From Methanocaldococcus bathoardescens (GTDB lineage: Archaea > AGJL01 > Methanococci > Methanococcales > Methanocaldococcaceae), in the NCBI RefSeq assembly GCF_000739065.1, contig NZ_CP009149.1:620001-684000 (forward strand): a stretch of 64,000 nt of DNA. Reading direction: 5' to 3'. The notes beneath the pieces were generated by a model. That model was not told where the DNA came from. It did no database searches and saw nothing but the letters and a program-made list of their open reading frames with translations. Shown piece after piece: positions 34,522 through 42,475 of the stretch (position 1 is its first letter; every line of letters starts with the position of its first letter). Position numbers and translations under genes: made by a program.

Positions 34522-34573
34522 TTTATCATCTCATAAATTCAAATAAACTAATTCAACCGTCCAAAATAATAAA

Positions 34574-34609
34574 ATGTTGGAGGGTCCCTTACGGGTTCCC
34601 CTCCAACAT
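34574..34609 (-). promoter_or_regulatory. SECIS element of fwdB
   Basis: In the fwdB 3' UTR the mRNA strand forms a stem GUUGGAGGG/CCCUCCAAC, an internal loop of GAA opposite A, a CCC/GGG upper stem and a GUAA loop. This is the archaeal SECIS layout known from Methanocaldococcus selenoprotein mRNAs. It lies about 110 bases after the fwdB stop and about 1.06 kb from the UGA it must serve. Confidence 0.9.
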
Positions 34610-34621
34610 ACGACGTGTAAC

Positions 34622-34669
34622 GCAGGATGTAGGATACCCCCAAAGATGGTTAGCGTTGCACGCCCACCC
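34622..34669 (-). other. Antisense mosaic in the fwdB 3' UTR
   Basis: Almost every base of this stretch is the reverse complement of coding sequence in the same operon. 34622-34639 matches fwdB 35626-35643 (18 of 18), 34638-34660 matches hdrA 41858-41880 (23 of 23), and 34657-34669 matches fwdB 35548-35560 (13 of 13). The fwdB targets lie 24-122 bases downstream of the fwdB Sec UGA; the hdrA target lies 8-30 bases downstream of the hdrA Sec UGA. The stretch ends 13 bases from the SECIS. Role unknown. Confidence 0.85.
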
Positions 34670-34721
34670 CGATATTTCATTAAGTATAAATCCAATATTT
34701 ATATTTTTCTTATTAGAATTT

Positions 34722-36029
34722 TTAGAGCATCTCTTTAACCTTCTTAATGAGCATCTTCAATATCTCTCTATCTGGCAAGACACCCTCTGGTGGGTCAATG
34801 ACTTTCTTCAACTGAATTGGAACTCCATCCATTCTATAAGCAGTTCCTTCAACCTCAACCCCAGCAATTGCTGGTGGGATGATAATGTTTGCCAATTGAG
34901 TTGTTGGTGTTTCGTGTGGGTCAATGCAAACTAATGGTATCTTTGCCATGTGTTGTACAGCTTTTTGTGGGAAGTGAGCCCCTGGGTCTGAAGCGATGTT
35001 TAACATCATGTCAGTTTCTCCTCTCTGCAACAAGTCATTAGCTGTTGTTTCTCCTGGGTTGTATCTTGGATAACCTCTTGAGAAATCAACTCCAAATGGA
35101 TAACCTGTAACCCAAGTTAAGACCTGGTTGAATCCATTTACGTTGTAGTGTCCTCTCATTGGCATTAGTCCGAATTTTGTGTAAGCGTTTAAGTCAATGA
35201 TTAATTGGATAGCGTTGTCAATGTTTCTGTGTTTTCCTTTTGTCATTGTTACTCCCATAGCGAAGAACAACTCTCCAAACTGTGCATTCTTACAAATTTC
35301 CATTGCTTCATAGATTAAATCTGCTGGAACTCCCGCAACTCTATCTACTTGCAGTTCAAATCCTTTCAATACTGCTCTCATTGCACTAACTAACTCATAA
35401 TCCTTATGCTGTTCAACTTGCAAGTGAATATCTGCTAACTTTGCAGTATCTGTCTCTCTTGGGTCTACAACGATTAAAGTTCTATCTTCTCTTCCTCTTT
35501 CTCTAAAGAATCCTCTTGCAAATACTGAATATCTACTCATGTGTCTTGGGTGGGCGTGCATTGGGTTCGAACCCCAGAAGATAATTACATCAGCTCTGTT
35601 TTTAACTTCTCCTAAGGTACAGACAGGGTATCCTACATCCTGCACAGCCAAGAGTGAAGGTCCGTGTCAAACACTTGCGGTGTTGTCAACAACTGCTCCA
35701 ACCAATTCAGCTAACTCAACTCCATACATGTGTGCATGACATTCAGTAGCACTCCATCCGTAGATTAATGGTAGAGCAGACTCAGTTAATAATCTTGCAG
35801 TTTCTTCAATTGCAGTTTCATAATCAACTTTTTTGAAGTCATCTTTTTTGTTCTCTCTCATTAATGGTTCTGTGTATCTCACAGCACCTTCAAAGTGCAT
35901 AAACTTAGCATTTCCAATTCTACATGCGTGTCTTGTTCCAACTATGTGGTTGTCTTCAACTAAAATCTCTAAGTCATCACATAATGTCCCACAGAATGGA
36001 CAAACAACATTTTTAATAACCTTTACCAT
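34722..36029 (-). CDS. fwdB: Tungsten/molybdenum formylmethanofuran dehydrogenase subunit B, selenoprotein
   Basis: 435 residues read through an in-frame UGA at 35667-35669 (residue 121, context ASV-Sec-HGPS). Both flanking halves match FwdB: an N-terminal [13 protein letters not shown] cluster-binding region and a C-terminal molybdopterin-oxidoreductase body. Sec should be a ligand of W/Mo at the CO2-reducing site that starts methanogenesis. Translation starts at ATG 36029 after GGGTGA. Its partner subunits FwdA, C, D, F and G are encoded 23 kb away at 59254-63908. fwdB is last in the hdrA-vhu operon, which couples two selenium-dependent steps. Confidence 0.95.
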
Positions 36030-39792: not shown

Positions 39793-39828
39793 GTTCTCTC
39801 GGTCCGGAAACCCGGTTCCCGAGAGAAC
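39793..39828 (-). promoter_or_regulatory. SECIS element of vhuD
   Basis: mRNA strand: GUUCUCUCGG/CCGAGAGAAC lower stem, GAA opposite A, CCGG/CCGG upper stem, GUUU loop. It starts 22 bases after the vhuD stop. An outer 8-bp pair, 39764-39771 with 39841-39848, encloses it. Confidence 0.9.
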
Positions 39829-39849: not shown

Positions 39850-40254
39850 TTACTGAGCTTTGAGAGGGTTAGGTCCGAGTTTTTGGAGTTTTTCGGTCAT
39901 TTCATTAACGGCGGAGACAAACTTATCAGCTTCAGCAGCTGTCATGAAGTACATTTCAATTCTGTCTCCGCCGATTCCTAATTCATCCAATAATTCTTTA
40001 ACGAACCTAACCCTCTCCTCAGCCTTTAAGTTACCTGTTTCGTAAGCACACTCTCCTTTCTTTCACCCTACAACCATAACCGCGTCGGCTCCCTTTTGGA
40101 AAGCTCTTAAAGCATAAGTTATATCAAATTTACCAGTACAAGGGAGCCTGACGATTCTTACGGTTGTAGGGTATTGCATTCTACTTGTCCCTGCCAAGTC
40201 AGCAGCCCCATAACCTCATTGATAACAGCAGAAAGCAATTATTACTGGTTCCAT
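39850..40254 (-). CDS. vhuD: Hydrogenase/heterodisulfide reductase linker subunit with two selenocysteines
   Basis: 134 residues with two in-frame UGA codons: 40216-40218 (Sec13, context CCYQ-Sec-GYGAAD) and 40063-40065 (Sec64, context MVVG-Sec-KKGECAYE). Both sit where MvhD homologues have cysteines holding a [2Fe-2S] cluster. Standard gene finding would miss the gene. It connects the hydrogenase to HdrA. ATG 40254 lies about 90 bases after the hdrA SECIS. Several inverted repeats lie inside the coding region, including one beside the second UGA. Confidence 0.93.
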
Positions 40255-40344
40255 AACTAACCCCTCAAATTATTAATTTAGTTTAAATTGATGACAGCGT
40301 GAGAATTAAATTTATAATTGGCTAAGGGCGCCTGCCCCCCATCA

Positions 40345-40376
40345 GCACCACCCTGGCAGGTGCCTTCGGGTGGTGC
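40345..40376 (-). promoter_or_regulatory. SECIS element of hdrA (also upstream of vhuD)
   Basis: mRNA strand: GCACCACCC/GGGUGGUGC lower stem, GAA opposite A, GGC/GCC upper stem, ACCU loop. It lies about 125 bases after the hdrA stop and about 90 bases before the vhuD start, so it could in principle act on either gene. Confidence 0.88.
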
Positions 40377-40395
40377 CTCATCTGGCTTTTTCTAC

Positions 40396-40493
40396 CCCCA
40401 ATGTTGAGCTCATAACCTACGCCATATTTTAGATATTTTGATTTAAATTTAGAATAAGATAATTTCTGATAAGTTGGATGTAGGGCTTGTGCC
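40396..40493 (-). other. Antisense segments in the hdrA 3' UTR
   Basis: 40396-40423 is the exact reverse complement of hdrA 41825-41852 (28 of 28). 40476-40493 is the reverse complement of hdrA 41720-41737 (17 of 18, the odd position a G.U pair in RNA). Both targets lie downstream of the hdrA UGA at 41888-41890, by about 36-63 and 151-168 bases. The order is nested, so the two helices could form together in one mRNA, leaving the SECIS 20 bases from the outer helix. Role unknown. Confidence 0.87.
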
Positions 40494-40501
40494 TTAAGTT
40501 T

Positions 40502-42475
40502 TTAGCTTTCTAACTTTTGGTGAGCCTCTAATACTCCATCAATGAATGAGATTATTTGCTCATCTCTGTAGTATCTCAACTGCATTGCTCCACTTGGACA
40601 TGCTCCAGCACATGAACCACATCCTTTACATGCAACGTCATTGACTTGAGCAACTAAATGTCCATCTTTCTCTACATATGTTATAGCGTTGTATGGACAC
40701 ATCTTAGCACAAACTTGACATCCTCCACAGACATCTTCATCAACAACAGCTCTAATCATCTCAATCTTGAATTGTCCCTGTGCCATTGGTATTGAAACAG
40801 CACTTGCAGCCCCTTTAGCTTGAGCTACTGTATCTGGAATATCTTTAGGTCCTTGAGCTACTCCAGCAATTGCTATACCGTCAACTTTTGTGTTAACTGG
40901 AGCTAACTTTGGATGCAACTCTTTGAAGAATCCGTCTGGGCTTAATTCTAAACCAAGCATCTTAGCTAATTTTGGATTATCTGGTCTTGGTGATAAACCA
41001 GCTGACAATACAACTAAATCTGCTTCAATTTCTACTATCTCTCCAAGTAATGTATCTTCTACTCTAACAATTAAGTTCTTTGTCTCTGGGTCTTCCATTA
41101 TGCAAGCCGGTCTTCCTCTAATGAACTTAACTCCAAACTGCTCTTGAGCTCTTCTGTAATACTCTTCATATCCTTTACCAAATGCTCTGATATCCATGTA
41201 GCAGATATAAACTTCAGTGCTTGGGTCGTGCTGCTTAATTAACTGAGCATTTTTCAATGCGAACATACAACAGATTCTTGAACAGTAGTGCTTTCCAACT
41301 TTGGCATCTCTTGAACCAACACACTGGATAAATACAACTCTGTGTGGATGCTTTCCATCACTTGGCCTTATCTCATGCCCTCCTGTTGGCCCTGCTGGGT
41401 TAATCATTCTTTCTAATTCTAATGTGGTTATGACGTTGTCATAAACTCCATATCCATATTCTTCTTTCAATGTAGCATCAAATTCATCATAACCAACTGC
41501 ACAGATAATTGTTCCAACCTTTAACTTAATTTCTTCAGGTTTTTGGTCGTATCTTATAGCTCCAGGACCACAAGCTTTTTCACATAATCCACATCTTATA
41601 CAGTGGTCCATATCGATTGTATAGACTAATGGAACTGCCTGTGCGAATGGGACATAGATAGCTTTTCTTGTACCTAAACCTAAATCAAACTCGTTTGGCA
41701 CTTCAATTGGACATACTGCGGCACAAGCCCCACATCCTGTACAGACGTTTTCGTCAACATATCTTGGTTTTTTCTCTATTGTAACTTCAAAGTTTCCAAT
41801 GTATCCTTCAACATTTTTAACTTCGGCGTAGGTTATGAGCTCAACATTGGGGTGGTTTGCAACGCTAACCATCTTTGGGGCCAAAATTCACAGCGCACAG
41901 TCATCAGTTGGGAATGTCTTAGCAAGCTGAGCCATCCTTCCTCCAATTGATGGCTCCTTATCAACTAAATATACCTTATAACCTTGGTCTCCTAAGTCAA
42001 GAGCTGCCTGAATTCCAGCAATACCTCCTCCAATGATTAAACAGGATTTATCAACATCTACAATTTTTTGTGGGACATCTTCTAATCTCTTAGCTCTTTC
42101 AACTCCTCCAGCAACTAACTCCATTGCTTTTTTAGTTGCCTTTTCTCTTTCATTCATGTGAACGAACGAACAGTGCTCTCTAATGTTAATAAACTCCAAG
42201 TAATATGGAGATAACCCTGCTTCTTTTATACAATTTCTAAAAGTAGGTTCGTGGATTTTTGGTGTACATGCAGCAACAACAATTCTATCGAGGTTGTATT
42301 CTTTTATTGCCTCTTTAATCAAGTTTTGCCCTGGGTCAGCACACATAAAAGGATAGGTCTTAGCTACAACTACGCCATCTAATTTTTCAGCAAAATCTCT
42401 CACTGCTTCACAATCAACAACACCGTTGATGTTTGCTCCACAGTAACAGACAAATACCCCAATTCTTGGGGACAT
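40502..42475 (-). CDS. hdrA: Heterodisulfide reductase subunit A, selenoprotein
   Basis: 657 residues. It is read through UGA 41888-41890, giving Sec196 in TDDCAL-Sec-ILAPKM, where other HdrA proteins have Cys. The FAD-binding [15 protein letters not shown] is near residue 155. Ferredoxin-type [12 protein letters not shown] and [12 protein letters not shown] follow the Sec site, and two more ([24 protein letters not shown]) are at the C-terminus. HdrA bifurcates electrons from H2 to CoM-S-S-CoB and ferredoxin. ATG 42475 follows GGAGGTGA. First gene of the operon. Confidence 0.96.

Follow-up and report, generated by a model that had tools for sequence, protein, structure and literature searches.

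The window analysed here, a stretch of 64,000 nucleotides from a genome of the Methanocaldococcus type (1,607,556 bp), carries on its minus strand the genes hdrA, vhuD, vhuG, vhuA, vhuU, vhuB and fwdB, in this order (names from our reading of the proteins). Both hdrA and fwdB contain a UGA codon for selenocysteine (Sec), and the stop codon of fwdB is followed by a block that comprises, in gene direction, the TATA-like TATAAATA, GGGGTGGGCGTGCAACGCTAACCATCTTTGGGGGTATCCTACATCCTGC 33 nt from the start of that box, a short linker, the SECIS hairpin GTTGGAGGGGAACCCGTAAGGGACCCTCCAAC and a T-rich run. Genomes and loci used for comparison are referred to by G and L numbers. The features of the block and of its partners in the two genes are as follows:

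34563–34674 (ends approximate), minus strand: putative SECIS guide RNA, the conserved block between the TATA box and the T-run; predicted fold z = −3.68
34696–34703, minus strand: TATA-box-like TATAAATA, 33 nt ahead of GGGGTGGGCG
34638–34660, minus strand: putative guide to hdrA, exact 23-nt antisense of 41858–41880; covaries in G002 and G008
34657–34669, minus strand: putative distal fwdB guide, which doubles as the outer part of the hdrA guide; exact 13-nt antisense of 35548–35560
34622–34639, minus strand: putative proximal fwdB guide, exact 18-nt antisense of 35626–35643; six pairs with double changes across the order
34574–34609, minus strand: archaeal SECIS hairpin (GAA/A), from the motif scan and model R1 (41.9 bits)
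41888–41890, minus strand: UGA (Sec) of hdrA
41858–41880, minus strand: hdrA target of the putative guide RNA, +10 to +32 counted from the U of UGA
35667–35669, minus strand: UGA (Sec) of fwdB
35626–35643, minus strand: proximal fwdB target at +26, antisense match to the proximal guide
35548–35560, minus strand: distal fwdB target at +109, antisense match to the distal guide

The initial annotation had singled out the piece at 34638–34660 as the exact reverse complement of 41858–41880, and sequence matching confirmed this: TGCAACGCTAACCATCTTTGGGG (minus strand) is exact antisense of hdrA over 23 nt, beginning 10 nt after the U of its UGA. With the UGA at 41890–41888 and the next target, that of hdrA's own UTR, at 41852–41825, the distances given there (8–30 bases beyond the UGA and 5 bases to the neighbouring target) were also correct. 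The match extends over 32 nt at 88% identity (34638–34669 with 41849–41880), and both of its 23-nt arms read in gene sense, so that the RNAs are able to pair. The piece was said to lie between two self-complementary parts of fwdB; it does lie among them, with an overlap of a few bases on each. GGGTATCCTACATCCTGC matches fwdB as exact antisense from +26, and GGGTGGGCGTGCA does so from +109.

A chance repeat was rejected, since 100 shuffles of the window gave an expectation of 0.00 matches to 34638–34660 at up to three mismatches and ten order-2 Markov windows contained no inverted 20-mer pairs. The window itself contains 13 such pairs, all given by the 23-nt repeat and by a 28-nt repeat in hdrA's own UTR; it has no other separated inverted repeat of 20 nt or more, and both are antisense to the Sec region of hdrA. 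That the segment might be absent from the real chromosome was likewise rejected, as the element is found in single-contig genomes and in independent MAGs.

The connection with the SECIS, which had not been drawn before, is the key to the 34638–34660 piece. The hairpin that follows the antisense pieces consists of two stems flanking a GAA/A bulge, above which lie S-S pairs, and can be written GTTGGAGGG-GAA-CCC-GTAA-GGG-A-CCCTCCAAC. Folding of the free RNA predicts for most species that part of the guide lies in a loop closed by GGCGUG-AACGC/GCGUU-CACGUC. The fwdB element matches no Rfam family, flpD RNA (RF01737) included, and its copies at other positions (see below) have no match at the gathering threshold; a scan of the window between 28 and 46 kb passed only flpD, which lies elsewhere. 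A known Rfam RNA was rejected as its identity for lack of a family match, and so was a box C/D guide RNA, because the C (RUGAUGA) and D (CUGA) boxes are absent from the 112-nt sequence as read. Our literature searches found no transcript data for the locus. No third target was found in G000 for the hdrA guide at up to three mismatches or for the fwdB guide at up to two. Two genomes, G006 and G013, each have a second hdrA that lacks the UGA (L017, L018), and these Sec-free paralogues contain no match to the hdrA guide within three mismatches.

The comparison of UTRs with those of relatives, which the initial annotation had proposed, revealed an element that is nearly identical across Methanocaldococcus. 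In G001, G003–G006, G009, G011 and G013 the block follows fwdB almost unchanged, in surroundings that have drifted. In G010 a 206-nt dispersed repeat separates it from fwdB, and no TATA-like box was found at the usual place ahead of the guide. This repeat (L090, 669–874), of a dispersed type of about 200 nt that is present in several relatives, takes the place of the usual box. In three genomes the element is found away from fwdB: in G012 at a distance of 448 kb, flanked by two genes on the opposite strand; in G002 after a ksgA-like gene, 3.8 kb beyond the end of fwdB; and in G008, a MAG that is 85% complete, on a contig other than that of hdrA and fwdB. Each of these copies keeps both guides, the SECIS, a TATA-like box about 30–33 nt upstream of the guide and the T-run. 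Nearly all copies of the element, those with unrelated flanks included, have the TATA-like box at 30–33 nt. The guide RNA was not found in G007, an assembly that is 86% complete. The HdrA tree groups G002 with G008 and is compatible with one relocation as well as with two.

In G008 and G012 the location of the element excludes one transcript shared with its targets; in the window, where it follows fwdB, such a transcript is possible. The SECIS does not lie in the mRNA of the gene it would serve in G002, G008 and G012, and may do so in the window. The suggestion that the first and last genes of the operon pair over 7 kb can thus hold in this genome but is not the general arrangement, as the element is separated from the operon in three relatives.

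A SECIS of its own is present downstream of hdrA in the window, with antisense pieces arranged much like those of the fwdB element:

40396–40423, minus strand: proximal guide of hdrA's own UTR, 28 nt; target 41825–41852
40476–40493, minus strand: distal guide of hdrA's own UTR, 18 nt; target 41720–41737; covaries between clades
40339–40385, minus strand: flpD RNA (RF01737), containing hdrA's own SECIS; 56.5 bits

This two-part guide (28 + 18 nt) precedes hdrA's own SECIS, and the antisense copy in this UTR is decaying in G003 and G006. The flpD SECIS after hdrA is absent in G002, G007, G008, G012 and G013, and scans of their hdrA-vhuD spacers gave no SECIS-like hairpin. The same five spacers retain the outer GATGA/CTGAT frame of flpD as a short hairpin from which the inner SECIS is gone; this frame may have a role of its own. 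For fwdB, no SECIS-like hairpin was found within 5.5 kb around the gene in G008 or adjoining the gene in G012 and G002; in G012 only about 32 nt separate fwdB from the next gene. Because the SECIS model missed the real selD SECIS of G002, G007 and G008, all absences were rechecked with, and rest on, a looser motif scan. In G002, G008 and G012 the UGA codons of fwdB and hdrA are retained despite the lack of a detectable SECIS of their own, and the element at its separate locus is the only SECIS found that has complementarity to both genes. Its guide to hdrA is present in G002, G008, G012 and G013; in G013, where the element comes after fwdB, it could reach hdrA either in trans or in cis across 7 kb.

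These observations bear on an alternative in which the SECIS in the 3′ UTR of fwdB acts in cis only, serving fwdB and, across 7 kb of a single seven-gene mRNA, also hdrA, the other copies being relocated remnants. The position of the element after fwdB in the operon of most species and the repositioning of a SECIS in cis by complementary flanks described for fdhA1 (PMC11881835) are in line with it. We consider it quite unlikely, however, as the relocated copies keep both guides, the SECIS, the TATA-like box and the T-run and covary with their targets, and fwdB of G008 has no SECIS-like hairpin within 5.5 kb. Another candidate source of the signal is the SECIS of vhuD or vhuU, which could serve hdrA and fwdB from a shared operon mRNA and make a guide RNA unnecessary for recoding. 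In Asgard archaea hdrA and frhD use one SECIS (PMC11227280), and in G002 and G012 hdrA and fwdB do share an operon with the vhuD and vhuU SECIS. In G008, however, fwdB lies outside that operon, and a shared SECIS would leave the covariation of guides and targets unexplained; we regard this possibility as very unlikely.

The covariation is as follows. The hdrA sequence CCCCGAAGATGGTTAGCGTCGC of G002 and its distant RNA GCGACGCTAACCATCTTCGGGG share two changed pairs that set them apart from the sequences of the other species, and a third changed pair lies in the outer hdrA helix. In G008 the fwdB target GCAGGATTCAGGATACCCC and the RNA GGGGTATCCTGAATCCTGC show two paired changes, with which the protein has altered too (Val to Ser), and G012 and G002 each have one further paired change at fwdB. 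For the hdrA guide and target 97.7% of the alignment cells are paired, with three double changes (one more pair in G008 is hidden by an alignment gap), and for fwdB across the order 93% are paired, with double changes at six pairs. The covariation signal, in statistics whose shuffles ignore the relatedness of the species, was largely lost when the partner was slid by one base. When guides and targets were paired across species, the best fit for the diverged G002 and G008 was within their own species. Synonymous divergence is low at the hdrA target (rank 18 of 657) and at the proximal and distal fwdB targets (ranks 19 of 438 and 10 of 440, respectively). The target of hdrA's own UTR guide shows no constraint over the genus (rank 519 of 659), and that guide is missing in several species. 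Judged from these alignments, guides and targets have changed together, even where they lie at separate loci (G002, G008 and G012).

Covariation also disfavours the idea that template switching or reverse transcription deposited functionless antisense copies of Sec-region RNA in these UTRs. In its favour, antisense copies must have some origin, and the copy in hdrA's own UTR is decaying in G003 and G006. As an account of the present state, however, this patchwork origin is not supported and we hold it to be extremely improbable: the complementarity is kept by paired substitutions, the pieces are found throughout the order, immediately ahead of a SECIS hairpin, conservation extends over the genus in diverged flanks, and synonymous divergence at the targets is low. 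Of the three readings offered by the initial annotation, binding of hdrA mRNA in trans is the best supported, given the compensatory changes at separate loci and the apparently stand-alone RNA gene in one species.

An RNA that pairs with these mRNAs could also be inhibitory, blocking translation of hdrA and fwdB or triggering their decay, for example when selenium is short, with the SECIS binding or titrating a recoding factor. Inhibitory RNAs typically have long perfect antisense, and complementary flanks lowered a reporter mRNA about threefold (PMC11881835). Under such regulation, however, fwdB (in G002, G008 and G012) and hdrA would lack a SECIS of their own altogether, and the guides that stand in cis beside the SECIS of other selenoprotein genes would not be accounted for; we consider it unlikely.

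A predicted helix in cis between the SECIS and the UGA region is in fact the wider rule, seen in selD, hdrA, vhuD, a fwdB paralogue and fdhA; within Methanocaldococcus, a guide helix is present in those selenoprotein genes that have a long distance between UGA and SECIS. In selD a guide of 17–21 nt precedes the SECIS and pairs with a target that starts at +9 to +13 after the UGA, with exact complementarity in all five genotypes (L068, L111–L123). The fwdB paralogue elsewhere in the genome has its own SECIS and a 17-nt guide at +32 (L066, 2387–2403 with 1440–1456), fdhA has its SECIS in the 5′ UTR and a helix of 16–17 nt, and hesB of G012 and G002 has a helix of 13–15 nt. The arms of the vhuD helix lie in the window:

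40005–40017, minus strand: 5′ arm of the vhuD helix, 13 nt, at about +48 from the second UGA; pairs with 39862–39874; covaries in G002
39862–39874, minus strand: 3′ arm of the vhuD helix, just ahead of the vhuD SECIS (39793–39828)

This helix is conserved, links the region past the second UGA to the gene end by the SECIS and encloses another hairpin of 10 bp. No guide of this kind was found in fruA and vhuU, whose UGA and SECIS are close together. Downstream of the fruA SECIS, G003 has a perfect inverted repeat of 16 nt (L070, 2523–2538 and 2602–2617). In other genera of Methanococcales, fwdB comes with a guide and a SECIS of its own at nearly all loci where both are readable, and hdrA has exact guides of 15–25 nt in four of the eight genomes checked and weak or no guides in the rest. 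The fwdB 3′ UTRs of G033 and G034 (L055, L056) carry a second piece before the SECIS, GCCCGTG, complementary to CACGGGC directly after the UGA.

Taken from sequence comparison, the element adjoining fwdB is quite probably a small RNA gene, whose product, a guide RNA with a SECIS, would provide the mRNAs of hdrA and fwdB with the recoding signal, in trans in at least three species. The RNA would consist of a SECIS hairpin with the guide sequences on its 5′ side, one guide pairing with hdrA mRNA, beginning 10 nt beyond the U of its UGA, and a two-part guide pairing with fwdB mRNA, beginning 26 nt beyond that of the fwdB UGA. As the guide lies 5′ of its SECIS in the 3′-UTR cases, the SECIS emerges from every predicted duplex at the end nearer to the UGA. 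Pairing in the cell would bring the SECIS next to a ribosome that has halted at this codon; the SECIS-binding factor and aSelB, together with Sec-tRNA, could act there, and Sec would be inserted with the help of the guide RNA. With the UGA in the A site, +9/+10 is about the mRNA entry point of the ribosome, and the nearest helices, which start there, may therefore also make the ribosome pause. In the genome of the window, the RNA could act on fwdB in trans or as part of the fwdB transcript, and hdrA would have it as a SECIS additional to its own; in G002, G008 and G012, where it is probably transcribed as a separate RNA, its separate locus means that it would act in trans. Evolution may have started from the cis guides of hdrA and fwdB that are found across the order: the fwdB element of the Methanocaldococcus ancestor would have gained the hdrA guide, after which some lineages presumably dropped hdrA's own SECIS and in others the element ended up apart from fwdB.

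The M. maripaludis reporter argues against a strict need for guides: a minimal 3′-UTR SECIS is active there without any, and total activity was not increased by adding complementary flanks (PMC9622424, PMC11881835). Guides may be important chiefly at high temperature, or they may be a necessity where the SECIS acts in trans.

The closest known system is the 5′-UTR SECIS of fdhA1 in Methanococcales, whose complementary flanks, longer in thermophiles, were proposed to reposition it 43 nt after the UGA (Peiter et al. 2025, PMC11881835). As in the fwdB element, the SECIS there lies next to a stretch that is complementary to coding sequence a short way past the UGA; the fdhA1 system, however, concerns one gene, in cis and from the 5′ UTR, whereas the fwdB element lies on the 3′ side, has guides to two genes and occupies separate loci in three species. 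With the canonical 3′-UTR SECIS of Methanococcales it shares the GAA/A motif and GC-rich stems, but those act on their own mRNA and the papers found describe no guides for them. The flpD RNA (RF01737) holds the hdrA SECIS in the hdrA-vhuD spacer but does not match the fwdB element. A SECIS captured in trans by RNA-RNA pairing has been proposed for HIV-1 and Ebola, through antisense tethering to thioredoxin reductase mRNA (reviewed in PMC7481318); that hypothesis concerns viral and host mRNAs, whereas the present element is a dedicated, conserved cellular one with compensatory changes. In the openly licensed literature we found no report of guides for 3′-UTR genes or of a trans SECIS element, and no description, for any cell, of a SECIS guide RNA acting on other RNA molecules.

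We infer that a free-standing cellular RNA with a SECIS probably base-pairs beside the UGA codons of two mRNAs and recodes a stop codon in trans, that it is conserved across Methanocaldococcus, and that it provides the sole SECIS for fwdB and hdrA in at least three species. How an archaeal SECIS communicates with a distant UGA is an open question, and the binding factor is unknown (PMC11881835); a guide helix holding the SECIS beside the UGA would be a concrete and testable answer. If the SECIS is supplied in trans, selenoprotein genes could not be judged by the hairpin in their own mRNA, and directing Sec to a chosen UGA with a short RNA is suggested. Supply in trans would also show how a gene can lose its SECIS and still keep Sec.
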